Assembly (NCBI RefSeq): GCF_024362525.1
Contig: NZ_CP101459.1
Location: forward strand, 186,001-250,000
DNA: 64,000 nt
Reading direction: 5' to 3'
Source: Natrononativus amylolyticus
GTDB taxonomy: Archaea; Halobacteriota; Halobacteria; Halobacteriales; Natrialbaceae
Shown here: positions 28,501 to 54,877 of the stretch, piece after piece
How positions within the stretch are numbered: position 1 is the stretch's first letter
Layout of the letters: each line of letters starts with the position of its first letter
Program-made: the position numbers and the translations under genes
The notes under the pieces: generated by a model
Databases searched by the model: none
What the model was told of the DNA's origin: nothing
Seen by the model: only the letters and a program-made list of their open reading frames with translations

Positions 28501-29200
28501 GCCAGACGTGCCAGTGGTTGTAGTAGGCCACGGGGTAGAGCCGCTCGCCGGCGCCTACGATGTCGCCGTCCTCGTCGAGCCAGCCGTAGCCGTCGTCGAC
28601 GCCCCAGCTTTCGCCCTTCTCGGGGTACTCCTCGTTGACCAGCAGGGAGTCGTCCGCCAGTTCGGGGTTGAACAGGCCCCGGTCGTCGAGCCCGCTCTCG
28701 CGGTAGGCCGCGAAGTCGTTCGTCGGGAAGACGTACTCCTCGCCGTCTGTACCACGTACGAAGAGCTTCCAGGGCCGGTCGGTCCCCGGGTCTCCGATAC
28801 CGGTATACACGTTCGCCCGGCGGGTCCCGCTCTCGCCGCTTCGGGGGAGCTGTTGGCCGGTGACCATACTCCAGAGGTCGTCCAGGCTGTACTCGTCGAG
28901 GTAGCCGTCCGCGCTCGAGACGGCGCTGTCGCGTGCCGACGCCGCCCAGTCGTACCGTTCGACGTTAGCGAGCGCGTTTGCCCGCATCTCCTCGGTCCAG
29001 ATCGTCGGTCGTGTCTTCGCGTTGAGTGGGTCCGAGTCGTCTGCGCCGACCGCACTGCTGGCCGGGAGCATCCCGGCGAGCAGTCCGGCACCGGTCGTCG
29101 TCAGTACCGACCGCCGCGACACGTCGAGGTTCGTCGCTTGATCGGAGTTCGAACCGCTCCGTCCCTTGCTATCGCTTTCGATCGGATCGTCGCTTGCCAT
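25508..29200 (-). CDS. Tat-exported heparinase II/III-like polysaccharide lyase, paralog 2
   Basis: The 1230-residue precursor has a Tat signal (RR at 29-30, SVLTTTGAGLLAG). The N-terminal helical region shares IWTEEMRANALANVERYDWA and NDFAAYRESGLDDRG with its paralogs. Then comes YGFAALRDG, an inserted beta-sandwich with YGIYELTINDEYVDTIDFM, and the lyase beta-domain with FHNHSDALNIG near 753 and TVSHNTVVVDES near 797. The promoter (minus-strand GCTATTTCG) favours ATG 29200 over a GTG at 29221. It is tandem with paralog 3, 156 nt apart, but has its own TATA box. Confidence 0.85.
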   Translation of the reverse strand: MASDDPIESDSKGRSGSNSDQATNLDVSRRSVLTTTGAGLLAGMLPASSAVGADDSDPLNAKTRPTIWTEEMRANALANVERYDWAASARDSAVSSADGYLDEYSLDDLWSMVTGQQLPRSGESGTRRANVYTGIGDPGTDRPWKLFVRGTDGEEYVFPTNDFAAYRESGLDDRGLFNPELADDSLLVNEEYPEKGESWGVDDGYGWLDEDGDIVGAGERLYPVAYYNHWHVWRPGGILNIVQALTDAYLYTGDRRYSRAGSVLLDRIADVYPEMDSSVYTLDGFWNSTGGRMTGKVKGATWESNLMRPIVRAYDAFFPGMEGDDELVEFLEAKTDEYPGLESKSSIEEIRKNIEDGIHREILPAAENSEVVLESGGYSVVTQAARALDEADGYTQEALEWIFQPGEELFVGDQWDEEPWNWITTGGNILAPLVDVVDRDGYNNRASPMYNRIRNNSYLETADYLQGYDGFDGADLYDHPKFRRTLTQNLPLLLLDQHMPEIGNSHPNDNYVSGSAIEGGFTTLGDPIYAQTWHYLNGYSTVGIRGDAFDEDPEGLATDIQEVIDAEGPLDLPSQNLAGYGFAALRDGVNYDARSLGIVLDTSNLFAEASTEVNDSFDRAIQLQAYEPGEWWTFEFDIEEGGEYDLDIEALFVGTYGIYELTINDEYVDTIDFMADGSGESTLTYSHDLQAGTNTMRFECIGKNDDSDNYLMALYSLTLLDEEAREARDEAELGNAKRAFWLYYGRNGSNAGGAFHNHSDALNIGVAAHELELSPDLGYIEQTGGDWPKADYWTMNTVSHNTVVVDESEQRDQWVGYPHHFDGSSERVNLIDVEAPQVYPQTEEYRRTLAMVEVDEEHSYAVDFFRVLGGDDHHFSFHGQVGEATAEGVDLASQEEGTYAGEDIPMPGHGEDHPYNHEVGSGFNYLANVERGDDPDEKVAIDWDVEDHWGHRDDNAEEVHMRLTTFGEFDEVALADGEPPQHGGQPESLRYAMIHRQGEDVESTFTSVIEHYEGDRAIEAIETVDVVDENGEPADARAVKVDLATGRTDYVVYSREEDVVTVDETFRFRGFLGAYSVEGGEPEFAYVQDGRLLQPVGGRPLIQRPYGRFTGTINDFTREMAHENELEVSLEGHHDDAAAIGDEPSVTADFVFVDVDEPFDQPDTHARNGAYPVEAIESAGGNRVTVDVGDRTFIKAFTDPDELEDGGYEYIVGENDGVVIPVAETWSRDE

Positions 29201-29224
29201 CAATTCGCATGAGACTTCCACTCA

Positions 29225-29356: not shown

Positions 29357-32300
29357 TTATCTCCCGTCCCACGCCGCCGACAGCGGGATGCGGATGTCGT
29401 CATCCTCGGAGATCATGTACTCGTAGCCGCCGTCCTCGAGTTGGTCGGGGTCGGTGAACTGGCGGACGAACGTCTGGCGTCCGACGCCGACGGTGTACCG
29501 GTTGCCGTGCCCGGACTCGATGTCCTCGATTTCGTAGACGCCGTTGCCGCGGCCGCGCTGGCCACTCGCAGCCAGTTTCTCCTTGGGGTCAGCGTCGTCG
29601 CGCCACGGGTTAGAGTCGTCGTTGTCGACGTAGACGAACCCGGTGTGGCGCTCGAGGTCGCTGCGTCCGCGCATGAGCTGAACGTCGAGTTCGTTCTCGA
29701 GGCTCATGCCGCGAGTGAAGTCCTCGACGACGCCGCCGACGAAGCCCTGGGACTCCTCGACGAGTGGCTCCTCTTCGTCAGTGGGGGCCAGCAGCGTGCC
29801 GTCGTGGACGTAGGCGTACTCGGAGTCGCCGCCCTCGACGCAGTAGACCCCGAAGAAGCCCTCGAACTCGAACGTATCGTCGACGACGACCTCGTCCTTT
29901 TCGAACGAGCAGACGACGTAGTCCGTGCGGCCGGTCGTCAGTTCGACCTTGAGCGCGCGGCCCTCGCCGCCGGCGACCTCGACCTCCTCGACGTCCTCGA
30001 CGACGCGCTCGCCGTCGTAGTGCTCGATGAGCGAGAGGAACTCGCTCTCTACGTCCTCGCCCTCGCGGTTGAACAGCGCGTAGTCGAGGGAGTCCGGATT
30101 GCCGTCGCGGTCGGGCGGGTGGCCGTCGGCCAGCGCCACTTCGTCGAACTCGCCGAACGTGGTGAGCCGGAGGTGGACGCCCTCCGCGTTATCGTCGCGG
30201 TGGCCGTAGTGGTCGATCACGTCCCAGTCGACGGTCACTTTCGAGCCGGGGGAGTCGTCGCGGGCGACGTTCGTGAGGTAGTTGAAGCCGCTGCCGTTCT
30301 CCTGGTTGTACTCCGTGTCCTCGCCGTAATCGGGCTTGGGAACGTCCTCACCGGCGTAGGTGCCGCCGTCCTGGGGAACGAGGTCGACGCCCTCTGCAGA
30401 CGCCTCGCCGGCCTGCCCGTGGAAGCTAAACACGTGGTCGTCGCCGCCGGCGACTCGGAAGAGGTCCACGCCGTAGGAGTGGGCCTCGTCAACCTCGATC
30501 ATCGCCGTCGTCCGGCGGTACTCTTCACACTGGTCGTAGGCGCGGAACGCGTCGACATCGATCAGGTTCACCCGCTCGTCCTCGCCGTCGAAGTGCCGCG
30601 GGATGCCGACCCAGTGGCTGTCTTGCTCCGACTCGTCGACGGTCACCGTGTTGTGGCTGATCGTGTTCTCCGTCCAGTTGAGTCGCTTGGGGTGGCTACC
30701 GGTTTCTTCCGGATAGCCGAGGTCGGGCGCGAGTTCGAGGTCGTGAGCTGCGACACCGATGTTGAGTGCGTCCTTGTGGTTGTGGGAGTGAGTTCCGTTT
30801 CGGCCGTAGTACATCCAGATAGCGCGCTTTGCGTTGCCGAGGGCTGCCTGCTCGTCGTCCTGATCTTCCTCGTCGAGAACGGCGATCTCGTACAGCGCCA
30901 TCAGATAATTGTCGGAGTCGTCGTTCTTGCCGACACACTCCAGGTACATCTCGTTGGTTCCCTCGAGGAGGTCGAGGTCGTACGAGATGGTGTCGCGATC
31001 GTCGGCGTCGGCCATGAAGTCGATCGTGTCGACGAGTTCGTCGTTGACGTACAGCTCGTAGATTCCGTAGGTGGTCGGACCGAACAGGGCATCGATCTCG
31101 AACTCGTACTCGCCGCCCTCCGCGAGGTCGAACTCGAAACGCCACCACTCGCCCACGTCATTGGCCTGTAGCTGGATCGCCTCGGGGAAGCTGTCGTTGA
31201 CCTCGACCGATGCCTCGACGAAGATCTCCGAGGTGTCGAACGCGCCAGCGCGAATCTGCAGGCCGTAGTTGTTTCCGTCTTTGAGGGCTGCAAAACCGTA
31301 TCCTGGGAGATTTCGGCTGGGGAGGTCGAGAGGGCCTTCGGCCTGGATGATCGCATCGATTTCCTCGGAGAGTCCTTCGGGATCCTCGTCGAAGATCGAC
31401 CCCTGGATGCCGTCCGTGGAATACCCCTGGTCGAAGTGCCACACCTGGGCGAACAGGGACTCTCCGATCACCTCGAACCCTTTCTGAATGCTGGTCGAGT
31501 TCCACTCAGAGGTGTACGGTCCGTGCTGGTTTCCGATCTGCGGGGTAAACCGGTCGATTACGAGCAACGGCACGTTCACGTCCAGCGACTGCTGGAGCTT
31601 CGGGTGCTGGTAGAGATCCGCGCCGTCGAACCCGTCGTACCCCTGGAGGTAGTCGGCGACCTCGCGGGTGCCGCTTAGCTGGATAGTGTTGTATCCCGGT
31701 CCCGCTCTGTTGTTGTACCCGTCTCGATCCCAGACGTCGACCATCGGAACGAGGAGGCCTCCGCCAGTGGCGTTCCAGTTCTCGGGTTCTTCGTCCCAGA
31801 CGTCGCCGTCGAAGATGTGCTCGCCGGGCTGGAACACCCACTCGATCGCCTCTTTGGAGTAACCATCGGGCTCGTCGAGGACGCGGGCGGCCTGGACGAG
31901 GGCGCTATTCCCGCCGCTGTCCATGTTGATGTTCTTCATCGCCGGAAGGATCTCCCGAAGGATGTTGTCCTCGATGTTCTTTCGAATCTTCTCGACGGAG
32001 TCCTTCTCCTCGAGTCCCGGGAACTCGTCGGTCTTGGCCTCGAGGAACTCGACGAGTTCGTCGTCGCCCTCCATCGCCGGGAAGAAGGCGTCGTACGCCT
32101 GGATGATCGGCCGCAGGGCGTTCGACTCCCAGTAGGCGCCGACGACCTTTCCGGTCTGCATGCCGCCGTGGCTGTTCCAGAAGCCGTGGAGCGTCTCGGT
32201 GTACACCGTCATGTCCATCTCGGGGTAGACGTCGGCGATTCGGTCGAGCATGACCGTGCCTGCCCGCGCGTACTCCTGGTCGCCCGTCAGCAGATACGCG

Positions 32301-33088
32301 TCGGTCAACTCCGTCAGCACGCGCGAAATGCCGCCACCGTGGTGCCACACCGCCCAGTGGTTGTAGTGGGCGACGAAGTTCCAGCGAGTTCCCTCTCCGG
32401 CACCGAGGACGTTCTCCTCGTCGTACCAGCCCCAGCCGTCGTCGACGCCCCAGCCCTCGCCGAGTTCGGGATGCTCCTCGTTAACGAGCAGGTCGTCGTC
32501 GGCGAGGTCGGGATCGAACATCCCGCGGTCGTCCAGCCCGCTCTGGCGGTACGCCTCGAAGTCGTTCGTCGGCACCGTGATGGTCCCCTCTCCTTCGGGG
32601 TTGTCGACGCCGGTGTCCGTCTTCCACATCTGACCGTCTCTCTCCCCATCTTGAGAGATGAACCGCGTTGGTCCGGGCCCGGCGCCGCGGGGGATTTTCT
32701 GGGAGGTCACCACTCGCCAGAGGCTCTCGAGGTCGGGGGTGTCCGCGTCCGAGCCGAACCGTCCCTGCCAGTCCTCGAGCCGGGACTCGACCCTCGAGAT
32801 GGCGCTGTCTCGCTGGTCTTCCGCCCAGTCGTACTGCTCGACGTTGTTTCGAGCGTTTTCACGGTCTTCCTCGGTCCAGATCGTCGGTCGGGTCTTCGCG
32901 TTGAGCGCGTCGGACTCCTGGGCTCCGGCCGTCCCCGCCGTCGACAGGAGTCCGCCGAGGATTCCCGCCCCGGTCGTCGCCAACATCGATCGTCGCGAGA
33001 GGTCGAAGCGTCCCGTCGAATCGACGACAGAACACAATCGGTCATGAGTCCACTCACCGCTGCTATCGCTCCGCTCGTTGCGTGCCAT
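29357..33088 (-). CDS. Tat-exported heparinase II/III-like polysaccharide lyase, paralog 3
   Basis: The 1243-residue precursor has a Tat signal (RR at 32-33, SMLATTGAGILGG). It shares the layout of the other two: helical toroid, YGFAALKDG, an inserted beta-sandwich (FGPTTYGIYELYVNDELVDT), and the lyase domain with SHNHKDALNIG near 765 and TISHNTVTVDES near 810. The C-terminus DPDQLEDGGYEYMISEDDD is common to all three. No membrane anchor or sorting signal is visible at the C-terminus. It should cut a uronate-containing polysaccharide outside the cell; the substrate is unknown. Confidence 0.85.
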   Translation of the reverse strand: MARNERSDSSGEWTHDRLCSVVDSTGRFDLSRRSMLATTGAGILGGLLSTAGTAGAQESDALNAKTRPTIWTEEDRENARNNVEQYDWAEDQRDSAISRVESRLEDWQGRFGSDADTPDLESLWRVVTSQKIPRGAGPGPTRFISQDGERDGQMWKTDTGVDNPEGEGTITVPTNDFEAYRQSGLDDRGMFDPDLADDDLLVNEEHPELGEGWGVDDGWGWYDEENVLGAGEGTRWNFVAHYNHWAVWHHGGGISRVLTELTDAYLLTGDQEYARAGTVMLDRIADVYPEMDMTVYTETLHGFWNSHGGMQTGKVVGAYWESNALRPIIQAYDAFFPAMEGDDELVEFLEAKTDEFPGLEEKDSVEKIRKNIEDNILREILPAMKNINMDSGGNSALVQAARVLDEPDGYSKEAIEWVFQPGEHIFDGDVWDEEPENWNATGGGLLVPMVDVWDRDGYNNRAGPGYNTIQLSGTREVADYLQGYDGFDGADLYQHPKLQQSLDVNVPLLVIDRFTPQIGNQHGPYTSEWNSTSIQKGFEVIGESLFAQVWHFDQGYSTDGIQGSIFDEDPEGLSEEIDAIIQAEGPLDLPSRNLPGYGFAALKDGNNYGLQIRAGAFDTSEIFVEASVEVNDSFPEAIQLQANDVGEWWRFEFDLAEGGEYEFEIDALFGPTTYGIYELYVNDELVDTIDFMADADDRDTISYDLDLLEGTNEMYLECVGKNDDSDNYLMALYEIAVLDEEDQDDEQAALGNAKRAIWMYYGRNGTHSHNHKDALNIGVAAHDLELAPDLGYPEETGSHPKRLNWTENTISHNTVTVDESEQDSHWVGIPRHFDGEDERVNLIDVDAFRAYDQCEEYRRTTAMIEVDEAHSYGVDLFRVAGGDDHVFSFHGQAGEASAEGVDLVPQDGGTYAGEDVPKPDYGEDTEYNQENGSGFNYLTNVARDDSPGSKVTVDWDVIDHYGHRDDNAEGVHLRLTTFGEFDEVALADGHPPDRDGNPDSLDYALFNREGEDVESEFLSLIEHYDGERVVEDVEEVEVAGGEGRALKVELTTGRTDYVVCSFEKDEVVVDDTFEFEGFFGVYCVEGGDSEYAYVHDGTLLAPTDEEEPLVEESQGFVGGVVEDFTRGMSLENELDVQLMRGRSDLERHTGFVYVDNDDSNPWRDDADPKEKLAASGQRGRGNGVYEIEDIESGHGNRYTVGVGRQTFVRQFTDPDQLEDGGYEYMISEDDDIRIPLSAAWDGR

Positions 33089-33210: not shown

Positions 33211-34977
33211 TCAGGGGCGGTCGATCACGCCTCGCCCCTCCCGATCCGCGACCTCGATAAGCCACTCGAGCACGTCCGCGTATGCGTCCGCGGTCTCGGC
33301 GTAGACGGCCTCGCCCTCGTCGCGGAGCCCGGTGAGCGTCTCGAGGGTCTCCTCGTACCCCGCCCGCGCGGCCGCCGGGGTTCGGTCGCCAAGCGAGGCG
33401 TTGGCGTGCGCCCACGGCTCCTTGCCCGATCGGCGCCAGTTCGTCGGGACGATCAGTCCGCCGAGATCTCGATAAATGTCGAATCCGTCCGGAACGAACG
33501 GCCCCAGCGCGTGACGGGTCACCGCCTGTGAGAACGCCGGGCGGTCGTGGGGCTCGGGATTCCAGAGCCGGTCGGCGAAGACGGGAATCGCCGAGGGGAG
33601 CGCCCGCTCGAAGTAGGCGTGGCGCTCCTCGCTCGAGGGTTCCCACGCGAGCAGTTCCCCGCCCCGGACCTGCGAGGCGCGTTCCTCGGGGACTGTCGGC
33701 CGACGCCGCGGCGCCCAGCCGAGCATGTACTCCTCGGAGATCCAGCCTCTCACATAGGCCGCGTGGACGTAGGAGTTGAGCACGTCGAACCCCTCCTCGA
33801 GGAAGCGCTCCATACTCACGCCCTCGACGGGTCCCCGGCCCGGAGCCGCGACGCGCCAGAACTGGATCAGGATGTCGCGGGGGAGGTCGGGCGACTCCGA
33901 AATGTCGATCTGGTCGTTCCACATGATCGTCCGCCGGTCGCGGTCTGCGAGGAACCCGTGGAGGTGACGGACGAACGCGTAGAAGTGCTCCCGAACCGTC
34001 TCGGAGCCCTCCTCGGCCATCTTCCGCCGGCAGTCGACGCACTCGTCCCAGGAGTGGCCGTGCATCTCCCATTCGTCGCCCCCGACGTGGACGTACTCGA
34101 AGGGGAACAGCTCGAGCACCTCGGCGTACAGCGTCTCGACGAACTCGTAGGTTTCCGGGCGGCCGATGCAGATCGTTCTGTCGGCCGGCTCGCCGTCCTC
34201 GACGGTGCAGCGCAGTTCGGGATAGGTCTCGAGGACGTGCGTGGCGTGGGCCGGCACGTCGACCTCGGGGAGTACCCGGATCCCGCGGCGGTTCGCGTAC
34301 GCGACGATCTCCTCCACGTCGGCCGGCGAGTACGCCGGCCGCTCGGTGCCGTCGGCGTCCCGGTTCAGCTCGGGGTAGGCTTCGGACTCGAGGGCGTACC
34401 CCTCGTCGTCGAGTACGTGGAGGTGGAGCCGGTTGTACTTCGCGCGGGCGGCCTGGTCGATCCGTCGTTTGACGTCCTCGACCGGCAGGTGGCCGCGCGC
34501 GGGGTCGAGCATGAACCCGCGCCACTCGGTCTCCGGCCAGTCGTGGATCTCACAGGCGGGAAGCGACCAGCGCGCGCCGTCCCCGCCTCTGCCGTCGGCG
34601 GTGACACCGTCCGCAGAGAGCGCGGTCACGAGCGTCTGACAGCCGTTCCGGAGGCCGTCTCCCGTCTTCGCGGTGATCGTGACGCCGGCGCTCCTCGCCT
34701 CGTCCCCGACGCCGGCCTCGAGGACGTACCCCTCCGGGTCGTCGAACCGATCCGAGGGGGTGGACTCGAGGCGCAGCCGGACGTCCGGCCGCTCGCCGGC
34801 GCTCGCGCGGGTGACCGTCTCGTTCGTCTCGCGCTCGAGGAGTTCCTCGAGGAGCGAGGCGACCGCCGCCGTCTCCTCGCTCGAGTCGATCGCGAGTGGG
34901 GTTTCGAAGCGAACGCGCTCGTCGTGGGTTTCGACGCGCCGGGGTCGCGGAACGACGCGCAAGTCTCTCGCTGCCAT
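33211..34977 (-). CDS. Glycoside hydrolase family 20 beta-N-acetylhexosaminidase
   Basis: The 588-residue protein has a GH20 N-terminal alpha/beta domain (about 1-140). The catalytic barrel opens at WRGFMLDPARGHLPVEDVK, continues with RLHLHVLDDEGYALES, and has the catalytic Asp-Glu pair in YVHVGGDEWEMHG near residue 300. The barrel shows TIMWNDQID and VFADRLWNPEPHD. GH20 enzymes remove terminal beta-GlcNAc or GalNAc by substrate-assisted catalysis that needs the 2-acetamido group. There is no signal peptide, so it acts inside the cell. It lies upstream of the two tandem lyase genes on the same strand; the 122-nt gap and own TATA box of the next gene suggest separate transcripts. Confidence 0.9.
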   Translation of the reverse strand: MAARDLRVVPRPRRVETHDERVRFETPLAIDSSEETAAVASLLEELLERETNETVTRASAGERPDVRLRLESTPSDRFDDPEGYVLEAGVGDEARSAGVTITAKTGDGLRNGCQTLVTALSADGVTADGRGGDGARWSLPACEIHDWPETEWRGFMLDPARGHLPVEDVKRRIDQAARAKYNRLHLHVLDDEGYALESEAYPELNRDADGTERPAYSPADVEEIVAYANRRGIRVLPEVDVPAHATHVLETYPELRCTVEDGEPADRTICIGRPETYEFVETLYAEVLELFPFEYVHVGGDEWEMHGHSWDECVDCRRKMAEEGSETVREHFYAFVRHLHGFLADRDRRTIMWNDQIDISESPDLPRDILIQFWRVAAPGRGPVEGVSMERFLEEGFDVLNSYVHAAYVRGWISEEYMLGWAPRRRPTVPEERASQVRGGELLAWEPSSEERHAYFERALPSAIPVFADRLWNPEPHDRPAFSQAVTRHALGPFVPDGFDIYRDLGGLIVPTNWRRSGKEPWAHANASLGDRTPAAARAGYEETLETLTGLRDEGEAVYAETADAYADVLEWLIEVADREGRGVIDRP

Positions 34978-36047: not shown

Positions 36048-36905
36048 TCACCGCTTGCTCGGCCGCGTCGGCGGCTCCTCGCTCCCGAAGATCTGCGTCT
36101 GGAAGCCCCAGTCCAGCCCGGCCGTGAGGCCGCCGTCGACGACGAGGTGGGTGCCGTTGACGAACGAGGACATCCCCGAGACGAGAAACAGCGTCGCGTC
36201 GGCGACCTCCTCGGGTCTGCCGAACCGCCCCGCCGGGTACTGGTCGATCCACTCGTCGCGCTGGGTCCACTCTCCGTCGTCGGTTTCGCGGCTCTCGCCG
36301 ACGTCGTCCAGCTGCTCGCTCCGCCGGCCGGTCTCGATCGTTCCCGGACAGACGACGTTCGACCGGATCCCGTGCCGACCGTACTGCGTCGCGATGAGCC
36401 TCGAGAGGCCGAGCACGCCGCTTCTGGCCGAGGAGTAGGCGATCTGGCCGATCCCGTCGAGGCCGTTGACCGAGGACATGTGAACGATCGAGCCGCCGCC
36501 GCTCTCGACCATCGGCGGGAGGACCTCCCGCGAGACCAGGAACAGCGATTTGAGGTTGAGTTCGACGGTTCGATCCCAGGCCTCCTCGTCGATCCGGTGG
36601 AGGTTGTCGTCGTTTATCGAGCCGCCGGCGTTGCTGACCAGGCCGTCGATCCCGTCGAAGCGCTCGAGGGTCGCGTCGACGAGCGCCTCGATCTCGGCGG
36701 GTTCGGTCACGTCACACGGGACGCCGACGGCGTCCGCGCCGTACTCGTCTCGCAGCTCCGCCGCGACCGTCTCGACGTCGTCCGGGCTTCTCGAGGAAAC
36801 GACGAGGTTCGCGCCGTTTTCGGCGAGGCGGTCGACGATCGCTCGACCGATCCCGCGGGAGGCGCCGGTGACGATCACGGTCTCGTCCGTGAGTAGTTGC
36901 GACAT
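36048..36905 (-). CDS. Short-chain dehydrogenase/reductase with Arg in place of the catalytic Lys
   Basis: The 285-residue protein is a classical SDR. It has VTGASRGIGRAIVDRL for NAD(P) binding, CDVTEPAEIEAL, LVSNAGGSI, the Ser in VHMSSVNGL, the Tyr in AYSSARSG, and VVCPGTIETG. The catalytic YxxxK reads Y-S-S-A-R because the codon is AGA, so the conserved Lys is Arg. Sequence style is near 2-deoxygluconate 3-dehydrogenase/KduD-like sugar SDRs, a step that would suit unsaturated uronate catabolism, but this is inference. An upstream in-frame start is open; ATG 36905 fits the family and a minus-strand TATA-like CGGTTAAGAC (36931-36940). Confidence 0.8.
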   Translation of the reverse strand: MSQLLTDETVIVTGASRGIGRAIVDRLAENGANLVVSSRSPDDVETVAAELRDEYGADAVGVPCDVTEPAEIEALVDATLERFDGIDGLVSNAGGSINDDNLHRIDEEAWDRTVELNLKSLFLVSREVLPPMVESGGGSIVHMSSVNGLDGIGQIAYSSARSGVLGLSRLIATQYGRHGIRSNVVCPGTIETGRRSEQLDDVGESRETDDGEWTQRDEWIDQYPAGRFGRPEEVADATLFLVSGMSSFVNGTHLVVDGGLTAGLDWGFQTQIFGSEEPPTRPSKR

Positions 36906-37033
36906 CGTCTGTACCGTTTGTGAGGCAGTCGTCTTAACCGATTGGTTGACCTCCTCCCGCACCTACAGTCGCGGGAATCTCACACAGCGACCGTTCACCG
37001 CGGATAAGACGCCGGCTCTCGAGCAGGGTCAGA

Positions 37034-39224: not shown

Positions 39225-40823
39225 ATGACTCTCGAGTTACTCGTCGAGAACGCCCGGATCGTCGACGGAACCGGCGCACCCTGGTTCCGCGGAGCCGTCG
39301 GCATCACCGACGGCGAGATCAGCCACGTGAGCAGGGCGACGGACCACGGCCTCGACGCCGAGACGCGAATCGACGCCGACGGCAGCGTCGTGGCGCCGGG
39401 CTTCATCGACGCCCACTCACACTCGGACCTCGAGCTGTTTTCCGACCCCGCGCTCGCGCCGAAGACCCGCCAGGGGATCACCACCGAGATCCTCGGCCAG
39501 GACGGCTTCTCGATGGCGCCGCTGTACCGCGAGGACGGCGTCGAACCCTACCAGGAGTACCTGAGCGGACTCGCCGGTCGCCTCGAGCGCGAGTGGAGCT
39601 GGAACTCGATGTCCGACTACCTGGACGCGATCGACGACGCCGGCATCGCGCCCAACGTCGCGACGCTCGTGGGCCACGGCACCGCCCGCTACGAGGTGCT
39701 CGGCATGGAGGACGTCGAACCCGACGACGACGAACTCGAGGCGATGGCCGACCTGATCGCGGAGGGGCTCGCAGACGGCGCGATCGGCTTCTCGACCGGG
39801 CTGGTGTACACGCCGCAGGTGTACTCAGAGACCGCGGAGGTCTCCCGACTCGCGGCCGAACTCGCACCCTACGGCCGGCCGTTCGTCGCGCACATCCGCA
39901 GCGAGGGTCGCTGGATCTGGGAGGCGCTCGACGAGTTCTTCGACATCGGCGCCGACCACGAGATCCCGCTGCACATCTCGCACTTCAAGCTTACCGGCGC
40001 CGCTCAGCACGGGAAGACCGACCGCCTGCTCGCGCTGGTCGAAACCGCCCGCGAGCGCGGCATCGACGTGACCGCGGACCAGTACCCCTACACCGCCGGC
40101 AGCAGCATGCTGACCGCGCTGTTGCCGCCGTGGGCGCAGTCGGCCGACGCCGGGGAGATGCGGGAGACGCTCGCCGATCCCGCCCGGCGCGAGGAGATCC
40201 GCCGCGACATCGAGGAGTGGCGGATCGACGGCTGGCAGAACGTCGCCGGCAAGACCGGCTGGGACCGCATCCACGCGACGAACCTCACCTCCGAGGAGTT
40301 CCGGGACGAGGGCGGCGACGCGATCGCGGCGATCGCCGCCGAGCGCGGAATCGAACCGGTCGACGCCCTCTGTGAGGTGTTGCTCGCCGAGGACCTCGAG
40401 GCGTCGATGATCGCCCACGGGCTGGTTGAATCGGACGTCCGGGCGATCCTGCGCTCCGACCGCGTTGCGGTGGGCTCCGACGGCCTGTTCGGCGCCCGAC
40501 CGCACCCCCGCGTCTACGGCACCTTCCCCCGGGTGCTCGGCCGCTACGTCCGCGAGGAGGACGTGCTCTCGCTCGAGGAGGCGGTCCGGAAGATGACCTC
40601 GCTGCCGGCGCGCGCGATGGGGCTCGACTCGAAGGGAGTGCTCCGGCCCGGTCTCGACGCGGACCTGGTCGTCTTCGATCCGGCGGTCGTCGCCGACAGG
40701 GCGACGTTCGACGACCCCGAGCGCCACCCGATCGGCGTCGAACACGTGATCGTCGACGGCACGCCGATCGTCTCGGACGGCGAGGACACCGGCGCCAGGC
40801 CGGGTCGCGCGATCCGCGCCTGA
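39225..40823 (+). CDS. D-aminoacylase-family amidohydrolase (N-acyl deacylase)
   Basis: The 532-residue protein is an amidohydrolase of the N-acyl-D-amino-acid deacylase group. The metal motif is GFIDAHSHSD (His64, His66). Later come LVGHGTARYEVLGM, GAIGFSTGLVYTP, IPLHISHFKLTG and SDGLFGARPHPR, all typical of the group. The position where D-aminoacylases have the metal-bridging Cys (GNCG) reads GQDG. A possible role is removing N-acetyl from a 2-amino sugar acid such as N-acetylglucosaminate, because a FAH-family gene and a SelA/DgaE-like gene follow in the same direction. True D-amino-acid substrates remain possible. Confidence 0.8.
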   Translation: MTLELLVENARIVDGTGAPWFRGAVGITDGEISHVSRATDHGLDAETRIDADGSVVAPGFIDAHSHSDLELFSDPALAPKTRQGITTEILGQDGFSMAPLYREDGVEPYQEYLSGLAGRLEREWSWNSMSDYLDAIDDAGIAPNVATLVGHGTARYEVLGMEDVEPDDDELEAMADLIAEGLADGAIGFSTGLVYTPQVYSETAEVSRLAAELAPYGRPFVAHIRSEGRWIWEALDEFFDIGADHEIPLHISHFKLTGAAQHGKTDRLLALVETARERGIDVTADQYPYTAGSSMLTALLPPWAQSADAGEMRETLADPARREEIRRDIEEWRIDGWQNVAGKTGWDRIHATNLTSEEFRDEGGDAIAAIAAERGIEPVDALCEVLLAEDLEASMIAHGLVESDVRAILRSDRVAVGSDGLFGARPHPRVYGTFPRVLGRYVREEDVLSLEEAVRKMTSLPARAMGLDSKGVLRPGLDADLVVFDPAVVADRATFDDPERHPIGVEHVIVDGTPIVSDGEDTGARPGRAIRA

Positions 40824-40889
40824 ACCGTCCGCCGGCCCGACCGTCGTGACCGAAAGAACGTTAGTGCGTGGGGACAACCCTCGAGCACA

Positions 40890-41624
40890 ATGCGAACGGT
40901 ACGATTCGAAGACGAGACCGGCTACGCTCGCCGCGGCGAGTGGACCGACGACGGCATCGTCGCGAACGGTAACACGTACGATCCAGCTGAAGCGAACGTC
41001 CTGGCGCCCTCGGAACCGACGAAGATCATCTGTCAGGCCGGCGGCTACATGGACCACCGCGAGGAGTCGGGCTTCGACGACCGCCCCGACCGCCCCGAAC
41101 TGTTTTTGAAGACGCCCAACTGCGTCGTCGCCCACGGCGACGCGATCGAACTGCCGCCGGGCCGCGAGAGCGTCGAGTTCGAAGCCGAGTTCGGCATCGT
41201 CATTTCCGAGCAGTGTCGCGCAGTGTCGGAGGACGAGGCGATGGAGTACGTCGAGGGCTTCACCTGTGTGAACGACATCTCGAACCGCGACGACCAGGAG
41301 CAGGAACGAAACTGGGTCCGCGGGAAGGCCTTCGACGCCTCCTGTCCGATCGGGCCCGTCGTCGCCACCCCCGACGAGGTGCCGGACGATGCAACACTCA
41401 CTCTGCGGCTCAACGGCGAGACGAAACAGGAGACCACCCGCGAGCACATGATCTTCTCGGTGCCCGAACTGGTGGCGGACGTCAGCGAACTCATCACGCT
41501 CGAGCCCGGGGACGTGATCGCCACCGGCACGCCGTTCGGCCCGGACGAACTCGCCCCCGGCGACACCGTCGAAGTCGAGTTCGACGGCGTCGGCACCCTC
41601 GAGAACCACGTGATCGCACGATGA
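40890..41624 (+). CDS. FAH-family hydrolase/dehydratase
   Basis: The 244-residue protein has the fumarylacetoacetate-hydrolase fold: LKTPNCVVAHGD, VEFEAEFGIVISEQ with metal-binding Glu residues, FTCVNDISNRDDQEQ, KAFDASCPIGPVV, and GDVIATGTPFG. FAH members include the haloarchaeal 2-keto-3-deoxypentonate dehydratase of the xylose/arabinose route as well as C-C hydrolases and isomerases. A 2-keto-3-deoxy sugar acid is a reasonable substrate, by context. Its stop overlaps the next start (ATGA at 41621-41624), suggesting translational coupling with the SelA/DgaE-like enzyme. Confidence 0.85.
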   Translation: MRTVRFEDETGYARRGEWTDDGIVANGNTYDPAEANVLAPSEPTKIICQAGGYMDHREESGFDDRPDRPELFLKTPNCVVAHGDAIELPPGRESVEFEAEFGIVISEQCRAVSEDEAMEYVEGFTCVNDISNRDDQEQERNWVRGKAFDASCPIGPVVATPDEVPDDATLTLRLNGETKQETTREHMIFSVPELVADVSELITLEPGDVIATGTPFGPDELAPGDTVEVEFDGVGTLENHVIAR

Positions 41625-42859
41625 CGGGCGAACGAGACGTCGCGACGGGCGGCCGCGACACCATCTACGACGAACTCGGCGTCCCGTCCGTGGTGAACGC
41701 CACCGGAACCAAAACGCGGATCGGCGGCACGCTGATCAGGGAGGAGGCCCTCGAGGCGATGAACCGCGCGGCCGAGGCTTTCGTCCGCATCTCCGATCTG
41801 CAGGCGGCCGCCTCGGAGCGGATCGCGGAGGCGACCGGCGCCGAGGCGGGCTACGTCACGAACGGCGCGAGTTCGGCGCTCACGCTGGCGGCGGCGGCCT
41901 GCATCGCAGGCGACGACCTCGGCGCGATGGCGCGACTGCCCGACACGGAGGGCGTACCGGACGAGATCATCGTTCCGCGGACCCACCGCAACGGCTACGA
42001 TCACGCGCTCCGGGTCGCGGGCGCCGAACTCGTCGACGTCGGCGGGAACGACTACCACCTCGGAACCGGCTCGGAGAACACCGAACTCTGGGAGATCGAG
42101 GACGCCATCTCAGAGGAGACGGCCGCGGTCGCCTACATGGAGAAGCCGTTCACGCAGCCGCCGCTCCCCGACGTCTGCGAGGTCGCCCACGCCCACGACG
42201 TGCCGGTGATCGTCGACGCCGCCGCGGAACTGCCGCCGACGCGGAACCTCTCGAAATACTCCGAGCAGGGCGCCGACCTGGTCGCGTTCAGCGGCGGGAA
42301 GGCGATCCGCGGCCCGCAGTCCTCGGGGATTCTCGCCGGACGAGCGGACCTGATCACGTCGGTCGCCCGCCAGCACCTCGACATGCACGCCGCGGAGGCG
42401 GCCTACGAGCCGCCGGAGGACCTCGTCGCGGCCGACGAACTCCCCGGCGTCCCACGCCAGGGGATCGGCCGCTCGATGAAAGTCGGCAAGGAGGAACTCG
42501 CGGGGCTTGTCGCCGCCCTCGAGGCGTTCATCGCGGAGGACGACGACGCCGTGCTCGCCGAGTGGCACGACCGCGCAGCGCGGATCGCCGGGGCCCTCGA
42601 GTCCGTCGACGGCCTCGAGACGGAACTCGCGAACGCGGGCAAAACCGAGGCGGTCACGTCGGTTACCGTCACGGTCACGGACTCGGCGCCCGTAAGCGCG
42701 ACCGACATCGTCCACGGGCTTCGCCAGGAGAACCCGCGGGTGTTCGTCGGCGCCGACGACCTGCACCTGTCGCAGTTTACGATCAACCCGCGGTGTCTGC
42801 CCGACGAGGAAGTCGACTACGTCGTCGAGCGAATCGCCGCCAACGCCGAGTCGGTCTGA
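41621..42859 (+). CDS. SelA/DgaE-like PLP-dependent enzyme (candidate amino-sugar-acid ammonia-lyase)
   Basis: The 412-residue protein matches the SelA-like PLP group that includes D-glucosaminate-6-phosphate ammonia-lyase DgaE. It begins YDELGVPSVVNATGTKTRIGG, then has EAGYVTNGASSALTLA and VIVDAAAELPP with the cofactor Asp. The Schiff-base Lys is in FSGGKAIRGPQSSG. Halobacteria generally lack selenocysteine synthesis by SelA, so a catabolic lyase is more likely. With the upstream deacylase it could turn a 2-amino-2-deoxy-aldonate into a 2-keto-3-deoxy acid. The start ATG overlaps the FAH stop by 4 nt. Phosphorylated versus free substrate cannot be told from the sequence. Confidence 0.8.
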   Translation: MTGERDVATGGRDTIYDELGVPSVVNATGTKTRIGGTLIREEALEAMNRAAEAFVRISDLQAAASERIAEATGAEAGYVTNGASSALTLAAAACIAGDDLGAMARLPDTEGVPDEIIVPRTHRNGYDHALRVAGAELVDVGGNDYHLGTGSENTELWEIEDAISEETAAVAYMEKPFTQPPLPDVCEVAHAHDVPVIVDAAAELPPTRNLSKYSEQGADLVAFSGGKAIRGPQSSGILAGRADLITSVARQHLDMHAAEAAYEPPEDLVAADELPGVPRQGIGRSMKVGKEELAGLVAALEAFIAEDDDAVLAEWHDRAARIAGALESVDGLETELANAGKTEAVTSVTVTVTDSAPVSATDIVHGLRQENPRVFVGADDLHLSQFTINPRCLPDEEVDYVVERIAANAESV

Positions 42860-42873
42860 GCCGTCCGTCGGCG

Positions 42874-43577
42874 CTACTCGGCCGTACTCCGCTCGCAGTC
42901 GGCGGCGCGAGCCGCCGCGTACGCGAGGAAGTTGTCGAACACCACCTTGGCGTCCGCGGCGGTCGCGACGGTCTCGTCCGTGATTCCCTCGAGAACGCGC
43001 TCGATCCGCTCGTCCGGGAGGTCCTTCCCCCGCGCGACCCGGATCGCCGTCTCCCGGTCGTACTCGGGGTGAAACTGCACCCCGAAGACGGCTCCTTGCG
43101 GAACGCCTGGATCGAGTAATCGTTTTCCGCCAGCAACTCGGCGCCGGGCGGGAGCGCGACGACCTCGTCGGAGTGGGTAGCGAAGACGAGGAATCGGTCG
43201 GGAAGCTCCGCCAGGAGGTCCGAGTCGCGGGTGCGTTCCATCTCGCGGTAGCCGAGTTCGTACTCACCCATGTCCCGCACCTCGCCGCCGAGGACCTGGG
43301 CGAGCAGCTGGTGGCCGAAGCAGACGCCGAGGACCGGTAGGTCGCGCTCGATCGCGGTCTCGAGCCACGCAGACAGCGGCGGAATCCACTCCTCGTCGCC
43401 GTAGGCGGCCGCGGCCGAGCCGCTCACGATCGCGGCGTGCCAGTCGTACCGTTCCGGAAGCTCGCCCCGGGTGGCGTCGAACGGGGTGACGTCGGCGTTC
43501 ACGTCGCGGTCGAAGTTCCGACGGGTCGCCTCGTCGTTGAAGGAAGCGTTCAGCAGTGCCACGCGTAGCGGGTTCAT
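42874..43577 (-). pseudogene. Class I glutamine amidotransferase, frameshifted
   Basis: From ATG 43577 the first frame gives a GATase with GVCFGHQLLAQVLGG (catalytic Cys) and TRDSDLLAELPDRFLVFATHSDE, up to YSIQAFRK. From about 43095 the gene continues in another frame with GAVFGVQFHPEYD, which holds the catalytic His and Glu, to a stop at 42874. Adding one G at about 43094-43097 (minus strand CGCAAGGAGCC to CGCAAGGGAGCC) would restore a typical protein of about 234 residues. Without it the catalytic triad is broken. It may be a real pseudogene or a sequencing error. The convergent SelA-like gene ends 14 nt away. Confidence 0.8.
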
Positions 43578-43687
43578 CTCGATGCGACTAACGTCACGTC
43601 GAAACGTAATGAACGTTCGCCTCGAGACCCGTTCTCGAAACCGATTGTTCGACGCCAAACCGCGGGTTTCCGTCCCGAAAACGAAGC

Positions 43688-44689
43688 CTACAGCTCCTCG
43701 ATCGCGACCGCCCGCCCCCGCTCGCTCGACTCGTAGATCGCCGCGAGAACCCGCTGGACGGCCAGCGCCTCCTCGACGGTGCCACTCGGCGCTCGCGTCC
43801 CGGCGACCATCTCGAGAAACGCCTCGGCCTCCCGGTCGTAGATGTCGACGTCGTCGACGGACACCGTCTCGGGGTCGGCGTCCGGGTCGGCGTCGACGAG
43901 CGTCAGCTCGGAGTCGGTGACGCCGAACCGCGCGCCGGCTTCGGTGCCGCGGAGAACGCAGGTTCTCGAGGGCTCTGCGGTGCCGTGCCAGGCGGTCTCG
44001 ACGGAGATCGTCTGCCCGTCGGAACACCGGAGGAACGCGCTCGCGGAGTCGTCGACCGCGTACTCGCCGAACTCCGAGCGGACCTGCCCGCTGACTTCGA
44101 CGACCGCCGGGTACTCGAGCAGGTGGAGCGCGAGGTCGATCACGTGGACGCCGAGGTCCATCAGGACGCCGCCGCCGGCGAGTTCCTCGTCGACGAACCA
44201 GCCGCCGTTTCTCGGGACCCCGCCCCGCCGCAGGTAGTCGACGTGGACGTGCGAGAGCGAGCCGAACCGGCCGTCGTCGCGCAGCGAGACGACCCGTTCG
44301 GTGGGGGCCGCAAAGCGCATCGTGAACCCGACCGCACAGAACCCGTCCGATCGGCGCGCGGCCGCCGCGATCCGTTCGGCGCTCTCGAGGGAGTGTGCCA
44401 TCGGCTTCTCGAGCAACACGTCGACGCCCGCCTCGAGCGCGTCGACCGCGATCTCCTCGTGAAAGCGGTTGGGAACGCCGACGATCACCGCGTCGACGCC
44501 TGCCTCGAGCAACGCGTCGTGGTCGGCGCAGGTCGTGGCGTCGAACTCCGCTGCGAACGCCTCACGGGCAGCCGCGTCGAGGTCCGCCCCGAGGAGATCA
44601 CAGTCGAGTCGGGCGAGCCGCGTCGCGTGGATTCGTCCGATCGTTCCCAGGCCGACGATACCGATTCGCGTGGTCGTATCCGTGCTCAT
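43688..44689 (-). CDS. Gfo/Idh/MocA-family oxidoreductase
   Basis: The 333-residue protein has the classic GIVGLGTIGRIHATRL dinucleotide motif, AVIVGVPNRFHEE, DVLLEKPMAHSLESAERI with the EKP Lys, and GGVLMDLGVHVIDLALHLL in the substrate domain. This looks like a well-conserved sugar dehydrogenase of the glucose-6-phosphate 3-dehydrogenase/inositol dehydrogenase sort, with unknown substrate. I chose ATG 44689, just before the dinucleotide motif. A minus-strand TATA-like GCTTTTTGTC at 44713-44722 supports it. The frameshifted GATase follows 110 bp downstream. Confidence 0.85.
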   Translation of the reverse strand: MSTDTTTRIGIVGLGTIGRIHATRLARLDCDLLGADLDAAAREAFAAEFDATTCADHDALLEAGVDAVIVGVPNRFHEEIAVDALEAGVDVLLEKPMAHSLESAERIAAAARRSDGFCAVGFTMRFAAPTERVVSLRDDGRFGSLSHVHVDYLRRGGVPRNGGWFVDEELAGGGVLMDLGVHVIDLALHLLEYPAVVEVSGQVRSEFGEYAVDDSASAFLRCSDGQTISVETAWHGTAEPSRTCVLRGTEAGARFGVTDSELTLVDADPDADPETVSVDDVDIYDREAEAFLEMVAGTRAPSGTVEEALAVQRVLAAIYESSERGRAVAIEEL

Positions 44690-44768: not shown

Positions 44769-46397
44769 CTACCGCGGGAGCCGCCCCTCATGCGCCGCGA
44801 GGTACTCCCTCGCGCCCTCGCGGATGACCTCCTCGGGGCCGACGACGCAGTCGCGCCTGAGCTCGGGGAACTCGCCCTCGAGGAGCGCCTTGACCTCGCC
44901 GTCGAGCGCCGCGGCCTCGGCGATCGGCCGACCCTCGAGGTGTTCCGCGAGCAGGTCCGCGACTGCCGTGGAGACCGCACAGCTCTCGCTCTCGAAGCCG
45001 AGTCGTTCGATCGTGCCGTCGGGAGCGACCGCGACGTGGAACTCGCCCTCGTCGCCACAGGAGGTCTCCTCGGAGTGCTTCGTGAACGTCGGCTCGGCGA
45101 GCCCGCCGTCGTTGCGGGGGTGCTCGTGGCGCTCGAGGATCGCGTCGTGGTAGGACGAGGCGAGGTAGCCCTCGAGTTCGTCGGCCGCGTCGTCGACGGC
45201 CGCTAACAGCAGGTCGATCTCCTCGGTCGTGTTGTAGACGTAAAAGGACGCCCGGACCGACCCCGGAATCGAGAGGATGTCGTGCAGCGGCTGCGTGCAG
45301 TGATCGCCCGCCCGGACGGCGATGCCGCGGCGGTCGAGCAGCGAGGAGAGGTCGTGGCCGTGGACGCCGTCGACGTTGAACGCGACGACGCCGGTGCGCT
45401 CCTCGCCCGCGGGCGGGCCGTACGTCTCGACGTGATCGCGCGCGTCGAGGCGCTCGAGGGCGTACTGGGCCAACTCGTTCTCGTGGTCGCGGATGGCGTC
45501 CATCCCGATCTCCTCGAGGTAGTCCGCCGCCGCCGCGAGCGCGATCCCCTCCGCGATCGGCGGCGTGCCGGCCTCGAACTTCCAGGGAAGGCCGTTCCAG
45601 GAGGAGTCCGCGAACGTGACGTGTCGGATCATCTCGCCGCCGAAGAGGAACGGGTCCATCTCCTCGAGCAGCTCGCGTTTCCCGTAGAGGCCGCCGATAC
45701 CGGTCGGGCCGGCCATCTTGTGCCCCGAGAAGGCGAAAAAGTCGGCGTCCATCGCCTCGACGTCGATCGGTCTGTTGGGGGCGGACTGGGCGCCGTCGAC
45801 GAGGACGGAGGCGTCGTGTTCGTGCGCCAGATCGGCGATCTCCCGGACGGGGTTGACCGTCCCAAGTACGTTCGAGACGTGGACGACCGAGACGAGCGCG
45901 GTGTCGGGGCCGATCAGTTCCGCAGCGTGGTCCATGTCGAGGCGTCCGTCGTCGTCGACGCCGACGAATCGAAGCGTGGCGCCGGTCTTCTTGGCCACCT
46001 GCTGCCAGGTGACCAGCGAGGCGTGGTGTTCCATCTCCGTCGTCACGATCTCGTCCTCGGGGCCGAGCTCGTTCACGCCGAGGCCGTAGGCGACGAGGTT
46101 GATGCTCTCGGTGGTGTTCTTCGTGAAGATCATCTCCTCGCGACCGCCGCTGGCGCCCACGAACGCCGCGAGCCGGTCGTGGGCCTCCTCGTAGGCGACG
46201 GACGCCTCGTGGCTCAGCGTGTGAATGCCCCGGTGGATGTTCGCGTTGTAGCCGCCGTAGAACTCCTCGTAGACGCGGTAGACGCGCTCGGGAGTCTGTG
46301 TCGTCGCCGCGTTGTCGAGGTAGACGAGCGGCCGTCCATCGACCGTTCGCTCGAGAATCGGAAACTCGCTCCTGATCGCCGATACGTCTCGGTTCAT
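44769..46397 (-). CDS. sufS: SufS cysteine desulfurase fused to a SufU/IscU-like scaffold domain
   Basis: The 542-residue protein joins two modules. Residues about 1-405 are a class V PLP cysteine desulfurase with LVYLDNAATTQTP, FFAFSGHKMAGPTG (PLP Lys near 226) and VRAGDHCTQP with the catalytic Cys near 364. Residues about 415-542 resemble SufU/IscU, with YHDAILERHEHPRN, SCGDEG, ESCAVSTAVADLL and LRRDCVV providing the three scaffold/zinc Cys. Group II SufS enzymes use SufU as a sulfur acceptor, so a fusion would channel persulfide within one chain. A minus-strand TATA (46421-46430) precedes it. Its tie to the glycan genes is unclear. Confidence 0.9.
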   Translation of the reverse strand: MNRDVSAIRSEFPILERTVDGRPLVYLDNAATTQTPERVYRVYEEFYGGYNANIHRGIHTLSHEASVAYEEAHDRLAAFVGASGGREEMIFTKNTTESINLVAYGLGVNELGPEDEIVTTEMEHHASLVTWQQVAKKTGATLRFVGVDDDGRLDMDHAAELIGPDTALVSVVHVSNVLGTVNPVREIADLAHEHDASVLVDGAQSAPNRPIDVEAMDADFFAFSGHKMAGPTGIGGLYGKRELLEEMDPFLFGGEMIRHVTFADSSWNGLPWKFEAGTPPIAEGIALAAAADYLEEIGMDAIRDHENELAQYALERLDARDHVETYGPPAGEERTGVVAFNVDGVHGHDLSSLLDRRGIAVRAGDHCTQPLHDILSIPGSVRASFYVYNTTEEIDLLLAAVDDAADELEGYLASSYHDAILERHEHPRNDGGLAEPTFTKHSEETSCGDEGEFHVAVAPDGTIERLGFESESCAVSTAVADLLAEHLEGRPIAEAAALDGEVKALLEGEFPELRRDCVVGPEEVIREGAREYLAAHEGRLPR

Positions 46398-52135: not shown

Positions 52136-53227
52136 TCAGTCCGACCCGCTCGAGGGCAGCCGGCGAGCGGCGCCATCGACGTCCACCCACGCCCCCGTTT
52201 CGGCGGACTCGTAGGCGGCATCGAGGATTCGCAGGACGGTCAGCGCGTCCTCGAGCGTCACCGGCGGTTCGGCCTCGCCGTCGCAGGCGTCGAAGAAGGT
52301 TCGGACGAACGCCATCCCCCACGAACCGCCGTAACCGGGGGCCGGCTCGTACTCGTGGGTGATCGTCCGGTGGGGCGTGCTCGCCCAGTCGCCGCTCGCG
52401 TCGTCGAGTTCGAGCGCCGTCTCGCCGTCGAAGCCGAACTCGCGGCCCATCGGATCCCAGCTGCTTCGCCCCCCGGTGCCGTAGACGTCGAGGTGCGTGT
52501 CGTACAGGTCCGCACCGAGGTAGTAACCGCAGTGGAGCGTCCCGAGCGCCCCGCCGGCGGTCTCGAGTTGGAGCGTCGCCGCGTCCTCGACCCCGACGCC
52601 GTCGGCCCCGGCGGCCGTGTTCGCGTTTACGCGCGCGATCGGCTCCTCGAGAACCGAGGTGAGCAGTTGAATCCAGTGGATGCCGAGCCACTGGAGGATG
52701 CCGCCCCGGCTCGCCCCCGGATCGAAGATGAAGTGGTCGGTGTCGCGGAACGCGAGCTGTGAGGCCACGTACCGGGCGTCGAACGCCCGGATTTCGCCGA
52801 AAAAGCCCGAGCTGACGAGCGACCGGAGTTCGCTCGCAATCGGGTGGGACTGCCACGGGTAGGAGACGCAGACGGTCGAGTCGGTCGTCGAGAGCCGGTC
52901 GCACAGCGCCTCGAGTTCGGCCGCGGTTCGAGCGGCCGGCTTCTCGGTGTAGACGTCGACTCCGGCGTCGACGGCGGTCTCGATCGCCGCGGGCGTGTCG
53001 CGGTTCGGGAGGGTGAGAAACACCGCGTTCAGCGCCGTCGATTCGAGCATCGATTCGAGGGAGTCGTACACCGGAACGTCGCCCAGCGAGGCGACGCTCG
53101 AGGCGTCGAACGACGGGGTCGGTTCGCAGGCGCAGGTCACGTCGACCGGGAGTTCGGCGAGCGTCTGCAGGTACGGCTCCGCGTGGTGGTGGTCGAGCCC
53201 GGCGTAGCCGATACGGCGCCGGCTCAT
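52136..53227 (-). CDS. Gfo/Idh/MocA-family oxidoreductase
   Basis: The 363-residue protein starts RRIGYAGLDHHHAEPYL, a GxGxxG variant with GLDHHH. It contains VFLTLPNRDTPAAIE, VDVYTEKPAARTAAE with the EKP Lys, and a substrate domain with GGILQWLGIHWIQLL. Start ATG 53227 overlaps the stop of the flavin oxidoreductase gene by 4 nt (ATGA), so the two are translationally coupled. It is sixth by map order among family members here, and distinct from the 38/51-kb pair. Confidence 0.85.
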   Translation of the reverse strand: MSRRRIGYAGLDHHHAEPYLQTLAELPVDVTCACEPTPSFDASSVASLGDVPVYDSLESMLESTALNAVFLTLPNRDTPAAIETAVDAGVDVYTEKPAARTAAELEALCDRLSTTDSTVCVSYPWQSHPIASELRSLVSSGFFGEIRAFDARYVASQLAFRDTDHFIFDPGASRGGILQWLGIHWIQLLTSVLEEPIARVNANTAAGADGVGVEDAATLQLETAGGALGTLHCGYYLGADLYDTHLDVYGTGGRSSWDPMGREFGFDGETALELDDASGDWASTPHRTITHEYEPAPGYGGSWGMAFVRTFFDACDGEAEPPVTLEDALTVLRILDAAYESAETGAWVDVDGAARRLPSSGSD

Positions 53228-54216: not shown

Positions 54217-54286
54217 GGCGACCCCACCTCTGACAGCGCCTTTCGACAGATATCCATTGTATTCGTCTACTGCGAGGAACGCCATT

Positions 54287-54298: not shown

Positions 54299-54386
54299 GT
54301 GGGGAACTCCGCCGAACCCTTCGAGGGCCGCTGATTTCGAACGGTTGCCGATCTGAGTGTCATTTGGTACCGTGGACCAGAAATCC

Positions 54387-54854: not shown

Positions 54855-54877
54855 CGGTGACTTCAAATCACCGACCC

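Follow-up and report, generated by a model that had tools for sequence, protein, structure and literature searches.

A conserved deacylase–FAH–lyase gene trio in haloarchaeal amino-sugar polymer loci and its possible part in a kinase-free route for amino-sugar acids

Introduction

Three adjacent genes of the haloarchaeon Natrononativus amylolyticus, coding for a D-aminoacylase-family amidohydrolase, an FAH-superfamily enzyme and a SelA/DgaE-like enzyme dependent on pyridoxal phosphate (PLP), raise the question of which substrate they may serve together. They occupy positions 39225–42859 of the stretch of DNA analysed here (the window: 64,000 nucleotides, NZ_CP101459.1, 186,001–250,000), which lies within a 768-kb contig of a haloarchaeal genome of 3.99 Mb. 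The trio is real and conserved, and the route to which it points is a new version of one already predicted, with a reaction that we infer. In our reading the trio would lie at the centre of a non-phosphorylative route for the N-acetylated amino-sugar acid of a sulphated, uronate-containing polymer, a proposal in which every substrate and reaction is a predicted one and which we hold with about as much confidence as doubt.

An earlier note on this DNA had taken a haloarchaeal version of such a route to be new. This holds for the deacylase–FAH–lyase trio itself, on which our literature search found no paper, and fails for the oxidative route through a DgaE homologue: in 2025 a route for N-acetylglucosamine (GlcNAc) was predicted for Natrarchaeobius, in which glucosamine is converted to glucosaminate and passed to a DgaE homologue, a kinase is postulated and RutC is read as a repressor (PMC12343721).

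Results

The three genes are all on the forward strand and show a coding signal of the halophile type. The first (39225–40823, 532 amino acids) encodes a candidate N-acetyl-aldosaminate deacetylase; its product matches Amidohydro_3 (E = 1.6e-42), the top solved relative is the D-aminoacylase 1m7j, and the deacetylase PpOngB is likewise matched. The second gene begins 66 bp further on (40890–41624, 244 amino acids; FAA_hydrolase, E = 5.6e-65) and encodes a candidate 2,4-diketo-3-deoxy-aldonate hydrolase. Its stop codon overlaps the start of the third gene in the ATGA at 41621–41624. The product of this last gene (41621–42859, 412 amino acids) belongs to the SelA/Aminotran_5 families of fold-type I, its top NCBIfam model being TIGR01437, 'DgaE family ammonia lyase', and its fold and residues make it a candidate ammonia-lyase of a non-phosphorylated amino-sugar acid. 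The co-directional arrangement and the overlap reported in the earlier note are borne out by the coordinates of the open reading frames and by the sequence.

The same order of deacylase, FAH and lyase genes was found in Natrinema zhouii, Halomontanus rarus and three further genomes (G235, G040 and G057), six genomes in all with that of the window; genome G050 has the FAH–lyase pair without the deacylase. The FAH gene abuts or overlaps the lyase gene in seven out of seven members of the trio clade. This clade is monophyletic in the lyase tree (SH-aLRT 100), with a sister clade that is likewise heparinase-linked, and the deacylases of the trio are monophyletic in their tree as well. In the other haloarchaeal trio loci heparinase II/III, GH20 or PIG-L deacetylase genes are close by, and heparinase II/III-like genes adjoin the trio in loci L031, L032 and L039. 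Since the order is repeated in five other haloarchaeal genomes, the arrangement is not a matter of chance, and these data support the trio as a conserved unit of amino-sugar polymer loci. The window genome (G000) also carries a second FAH gene (C2:290604–291338; L057:804–1538), whose protein is 98% identical to the window copy, which indicates recent duplication or gene conversion. It is accompanied by genes for an IclR regulator and a flavin reductase, and a second lyase copy (63%, C2:283467–284657) is about 6 kb away.

An AlphaFold model of the PLP enzyme, made with a 38-row alignment (pLDDT 91.4), had DGL, the DgaE enzyme of Salmonella (7lc0), as its first fold match (TM 0.78/0.87). In DGL the substrate phosphate was docked at Arg301, Arg332 and Arg346; His162 and His163 are conserved, His163 is the proton donor to C3, and the H163A variant is still active and releases the enamine (PMC9529869). 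We compared these positions, in DGL numbering, in the window enzyme and its haloarchaeal relatives (about 40 aligned rows). The PLP lysine is retained in all of them. Arg301 is replaced by Ser, Thr, Glu or Gln and Arg332 by Gly in every row, including that of Natrarchaeobius chitinivorans AArcht7 (L167), and the histidine pair is missing throughout, the corresponding loop of the window enzyme (EKPFTQPP) being free of histidine. The equivalent of Arg346, Arg391 in the window enzyme, is kept across the trio clade, whereas almost all of the remaining haloarchaeal relatives have Met there, so that the window enzyme reads S, G and R at positions 301, 332 and 346. Loss of both arginines and of the histidine pair makes a phosphorylated substrate unlikely, and the comparison as a whole supports the grouping of this enzyme with DgaE/DGL, with a phosphate site that is mostly gone, and not with selenocysteine synthase. 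The latter identity was rejected, SelA proper being far more distant in profile and fold searches, as was a cysteine-desulfurase-like identity through Aminotran_5, for which the match was weak.

The bacterial relatives of the PLP enzyme (40–48%) stand in mixed contexts (M81 peptidases, short-chain dehydrogenases (SDR), MR/MLE enzymes, second SelA copies) and do not help to fix the substrate. In loci of planctomycete type (L196, L216, L224 and L236), M81 peptidase and MR/MLE genes are close to a pair of lyase-family copies. A divergent pair of lyase copies is found in Haloarcula sp. GH36 (L038:9983–11197 and L038:12855–14078), and the region between them (L038:11300–12825) encodes two proteins without any Pfam match, homologues of which adjoin FAH genes in L054 and L078.

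Because DGL lacking His163 releases an enamine, a need for RidA is predicted for the haloarchaeal lyases. Among 86 haloarchaeal relatives of the PLP enzyme, 44 have RidA at a distance of up to 10 kb; a glucose dehydrogenase (GDH)-type gene is close to 38 of them and a PIG-L deacetylase gene to 56, and 31 have all three in their neighbourhood. For comparison, there are four RidA genes in the entire window genome of about 4 Mb, two of them on the replicon of the window. The 86 copies share kinship and the counts are therefore not independent. On the lyase tree the presence of RidA switches 15 times, and a paired tree test of RidA against GDH presence gave the expected direction, though the number of independent pairs was too small (median p 0.125). 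The counts support a neighbourhood of RidA and GDH such as would be expected of a glucosaminate lyase giving an enamine.

In the deacylase, compared with PpOngB in the numbering of the latter (PMC12017989), equivalents are kept of the catalytic Asp368, of His68 and His70 (the HxH motif), His222 and His252, and of the carboxylate binders Lys254, Tyr285 and Arg379. Two cavity positions of OngB recur in the trio clade, Gly348 in all six members and Ser292 in five of the six, the window enzyme having both; in the sister clade these positions hold Thr and a residue other than Gly, the amino-acid-type state, and none of its members has the OngB states. The position of OngB Gln298 falls in an insertion that cannot be aligned reliably and was not used. 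On the tree the Ser292/Gly348 pair would represent convergence with OngB, which we regard as suggestive only. Relatives of the deacylase at 58–65% identity, where inspected, have other neighbourhoods, in most cases of amino-acid and peptide genes.

The FAH enzyme has the HxxE pair of the C–C hydrolases (YMDHREE in the window), and all aligned relatives have the histidine, almost all of them its acidic partner as well. Against NF053535, the model of 2,4-didehydro-3-deoxy-L-rhamnonate hydrolase, it scored 144 bits, short of the cut-off of 500. Its relatives (58–64%) adjoin a Gfo/Idh/MocA dehydrogenase gene and sugar-acid dehydratases of the MR/MLE or UxaA type, and one is additionally next to LUD genes, of a type implicated in lactate use in rhamnose breakdown. 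Owing to the motif and to this kinship beside sugar-acid dehydratases, the enzyme, for which the earlier note had given no explanation, is probably a diketo-deoxy-acid hydrolase. By analogy with routes in which oxidation at C4 is followed by hydrolysis (PMC6336799), the lyase would take the place of the dehydratase and the FAH enzyme would yield pyruvate and glycerate. A role as 2-keto-3-deoxygluconate (KDG) dehydratase like 2q18 was rejected on a weak match.

The genes around the trio suggest that the locus serves a hexosamine polymer that is sulphated and contains uronate. On the reverse strand are a GH20 hexosaminidase (33211–34977), a candidate source of free N-acetylhexosamine, three paralogous heparinase II/III-like lyases of about 1240 amino acids (13789–17580, 25508–29221 and 29357–33088) and a sulfatase with an SGSH_C domain (8182–9660); GH3 and dipeptide-type transporter genes are also present, whereas a PL8 gene was not seen in this stretch. 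The sugar dehydrogenases, the gene of the dihydrodipicolinate synthase (DHDPS) family and the aldehyde dehydrogenase listed in the earlier note were all found, the first as one SDR and six Gfo/Idh/MocA genes. The SDR (36048–36962, reverse) is a candidate sugar 1-dehydrogenase (or C4 dehydrogenase), with 218 bits against the NCBIfam glucose 1-dehydrogenase subfamily (cut-off 215); it is matched best by genes of the H. rarus and N. zhouii trio loci (82% and 78%), and its next relatives adjoin a sugar-acid dehydratase and RidA. A Gfo/Idh/MocA oxidoreductase (43688–44689, reverse) accompanies the trio and has orthologues of 64–72% in trio loci L032, L040 and L042.

The DHDPS-family gene (54857–55819, forward) is nearest to 5-dehydro-4-deoxyglucarate dehydratase (KdgD; 170 bits, cut-off 278), and an assignment as KDG aldolase was rejected, the archaeal model of that enzyme giving 49 bits. 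Both H. rarus and N. zhouii have a homologue (75% and 73%) on the plasmid that bears the trio, the next best having 62%. The aldehyde dehydrogenase (12108–13667, forward) passes the cut-off of NF052305 as haloarchaeal 2,5-dioxovalerate dehydrogenase (841 bits against 750). It is plausible that these two genes form a uronate/glucarate tail; the proposal of the earlier note that they split or oxidise the product of the lyase is upheld as to the presence of the genes and not as to their likely role.

As to the sugar kinase and the glucosamine-6-phosphate deaminase that the earlier note did not find in the window, the annotated genes of the window include no sugar kinase, a search of the whole genome gave no match to NagB, and NagA gave only sub-threshold fragments, none above the cut-off, genome-wide. 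The genome has a GDH orthologue on another contig and a glycerate kinase gene.

Several further genes of the locus deserve mention. A class I glutamine amidotransferase gene (42874–43579, reverse) shifts frame midway relative to the intact H. rarus relative (L032:4677–5399), the result of a sequencing error or of gene decay. A SufS cysteine desulfurase fused to a NifU/SufU-like domain is encoded within the sugar locus (44769–46397, reverse), and in H. rarus a SufS-family gene is likewise close to the trio. An LLM flavin-dependent oxidoreductase gene adjoins a Gfo gene (52136–54441, reverse); this pair recurs with a sulfatase, a flavin reductase and another lyase copy in L076, L114 and L119 and in L056/L057 of the same genome, a context resembling that of two-component sulphonate monooxygenases. 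A gamma-glutamyltranspeptidase (22743–24650, forward) and an M14 carboxypeptidase (55913–57001, forward) may hint at an envelope polymer of glycan-peptide or polyglutamyl type.

Discussion

The route that we propose would begin with the release of N-acetylhexosamine by the GH20 enzyme and its oxidation at C1 by a sugar 1-dehydrogenase, which may be the SDR, a Gfo/Idh/MocA protein or the chromosomal glucose dehydrogenase. The D-aminoacylase-family enzyme would then take acetate off the N-acetyl-aldosaminate, and the SelA/DgaE-like enzyme would eliminate the C3 hydroxyl with the aid of PLP to give ammonia and a 2-keto-3-deoxy-aldonate; as it has no counterpart of the proton-donor histidine of DGL, it would release an enamine for RidA to hydrolyse. 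A candidate dehydrogenase would oxidise the keto-deoxy acid at C4, and the FAH enzyme would hydrolyse the resulting diketo acid to pyruvate and glycerate. The amino-sugar-acid route suggested in the earlier note gains from the conservation of the trio in amino-sugar polymer loci, the kinship with DgaE/DGL, the OngB-like cavity and the lack of NagB. Its choice of GlcNAc or N-acetylgalactosamine as substrate fares less well, the locus pointing to a sulphated uronate polymer.

A number of observations weigh against this route. The score of the PLP enzyme against TIGR01437 (208 bits) is below the cut-off of 385, and against NF047797 it reaches 196 bits where the cut-off is 600. The metal ligand Cys97 of OngB is Asp in the deacylase, a state shared by the sister clade and by other relatives, and the Cys/His/His site of subtype V is not found; the enzyme is, moreover, about 60% identical to D-aminoacylases from peptide contexts and 34% identical to OngB, and since Ser292 and Gly348 each amount to one ancestral change, their recurrence is statistically weak. 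None of the candidates in the window could be pinned down as the C4 dehydrogenase, the KdgD-like and 2,5-dioxovalerate dehydrogenase genes suit a glucarate tail and not one ending in FAH, and RidA and GDH genes are missing within 10 kb of the trios themselves.

The peptide contexts raise the alternative of N-acyl-D-amino acid catabolism, in which the deacylase would release a D-amino acid, and D-serine, D-threonine or a similar hydroxy-D-amino acid would undergo beta-elimination by the PLP enzyme. The closest deacylase relatives outside the trio clade are near genes for threonine dehydratase, a Zn-dependent hydrolase, M81 peptidase and peptide transporters, the bacterial PLP relatives are often near M81 or D-threonine-aldolase-like genes, the gamma-glutamyltranspeptidase and M14 genes share the locus, and OngC also accepts D-serine and D-threonine (PMC9537276). 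In the trio clade, however, the context of the deacylase (heparinase, GH20, PIG-L) and its cavity residues changed together, and the haloarchaeal PLP relatives group with GDH, RidA and PIG-L and not with peptide genes, so we consider this alternative unlikely. We give no more credence to a substrate charged at C6, either a 6-sulphated acid or an amino-sugar aldarate whose precursor is a 2-acetamido-2-deoxyuronic acid, although Arg391 makes it a live alternative: a C6 carboxylate on the amino sugar would let the lyase product feed the glucarate tail directly, 2-keto-3-deoxyglucarate going to 2-oxoglutarate through the KdgD-like enzyme and the dehydrogenase. The score of that dehydrogenase above its curated cut-off, the affinity of the DHDPS-family gene to KdgD and its co-conservation with the trio on two plasmids, and the sulfatases and three heparinase-like lyases are all in keeping with such a substrate. 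Yet a single arginine is thin evidence, the two tail genes may just handle the plain uronate portion of the polymer, and the aldarate route leaves the FAH gene without a role. It is similarly improbable that a C6-charged substrate would originate in a sulphated polymer of the haloarchaeal envelope or slime and be handled by a deacetylation that arose, from a peptide D-aminoacylase, independently of OngB and by a lyase of SelA/DgaE fold independent of OngC.

The FAH gene itself may merely be carried with the lyase and serve the uronate branch as a hydratase or isomerase. FAH copies also occur with no lyase nearby and one relative is in an acyl-CoA context, but the unbroken linkage to the lyase within the trio clade makes this doubtful, if somewhat less so than the two foregoing alternatives. 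A phosphorylated route, in which a kinase would make D-glucosaminate 6-phosphate for the PLP enzyme to convert to 2-keto-3-deoxy-6-phosphogluconate (KDPG), as proposed for Natrarchaeobius, would agree with the homology to DGL and with the existence of a KDPG branch in haloarchaea. We think it very unlikely, given that every haloarchaeal copy examined has lost the loop histidines along with two of the three arginines at the phosphate site, and that a sugar kinase gene is missing from the window annotation. Least probable of all is that the PLP enzyme acts as an oxygen-dependent amino-acid monooxygenase-decarboxylase like Cap15, producing an amide and CO2 instead of ammonia (PMC7497351). Cap15 (8t7j) is about as close to it as DGL in profile and fold searches, a further point against a lyase, but Cap15 retains the arginine cluster lost in the haloarchaeal enzymes, and the association with RidA suits an enamine-releasing lyase.

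Among known systems, the Ong pathway of Pseudoalteromonas (OngB/OngC/OngD/KdgK; PMC9537276, PMC12017989) is alike in following deacetylation of an aldonate by a D-aminoacylase-family enzyme with PLP-dependent deamination to a 2-keto-3-deoxy acid; its cluster, of which our locus L093 is a true example, also has RidA, with GH20 upstream. The likeness to marine oxidative GlcNAc routes noted earlier is therefore one of chemistry and does not extend to the deaminase: OngC is of fold-type III and unrelated to the SelA-like fold-type I enzyme of the window (PMC9537276), and no OngC-type gene neighbours the deacetylase here. OngB keeps Cys97, a KDG kinase stands where the window has the FAH gene, and the substrate is chitin in contrast to that of a heparinase/sulfatase locus. 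The Salmonella Dga pathway (PMC9529869) shares the fold, the PLP lysine and the equivalents of Arg226 and Arg346 kept in the trio clade; on the window side most of the phosphate site and both loop histidines are lost, and neither a phosphotransferase system nor DgaF was recognised. The phosphorylative Nag pathway needs NagA and NagB, which the window genome does not provide.

The Natrarchaeobius cluster (CE14, GDH, RutC/RidA, DGA; PMC12343721) has a homologous PLP enzyme (62% identity, L167) and the same oxidative entry at C1, but deacetylates before oxidation by CE14 and postulates a kinase, whereas the window has an aldonate-type deacylase and the FAH gene. GDH, RidA and CE14 are absent within 10 kb of the window lyase and present in sister clades. 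Our results suggest that the Natrarchaeobius-type route needs no kinase and that its RutC/RidA protein acts on the enamine. Diketo-hydrolase routes, namely bacterial Route III (PMC6336799) and, as far as it is described where cited in PMC8305020, the haloarchaeal conversion of rhamnose to pyruvate and lactate, likewise place an FAH-family enzyme with a His/Glu pair after a 2-keto-3-deoxy acid; there this acid comes from a dehydratase, while in the window it would come from an ammonia-lyase. Use of glycosaminoglycans by haloarchaea, shown in 2026, likewise involves plasmid loci for acidic hexosamine polymers, but with PL8 lyases and not the heparinase II/III-like lyases of the window (PMC13260240).

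If the proposed route is true, haloarchaea would recover both carbon and nitrogen from acidic amino-sugar polymers with no kinase, and the published haloarchaeal proposal, which needs an unidentified one, would be corrected. The oxidative amino-sugar route would then have arisen at least twice, with unrelated deaminases. Release of an enamine would explain why RidA is found beside the lyases, and predictions testable at the level of single residues would follow.

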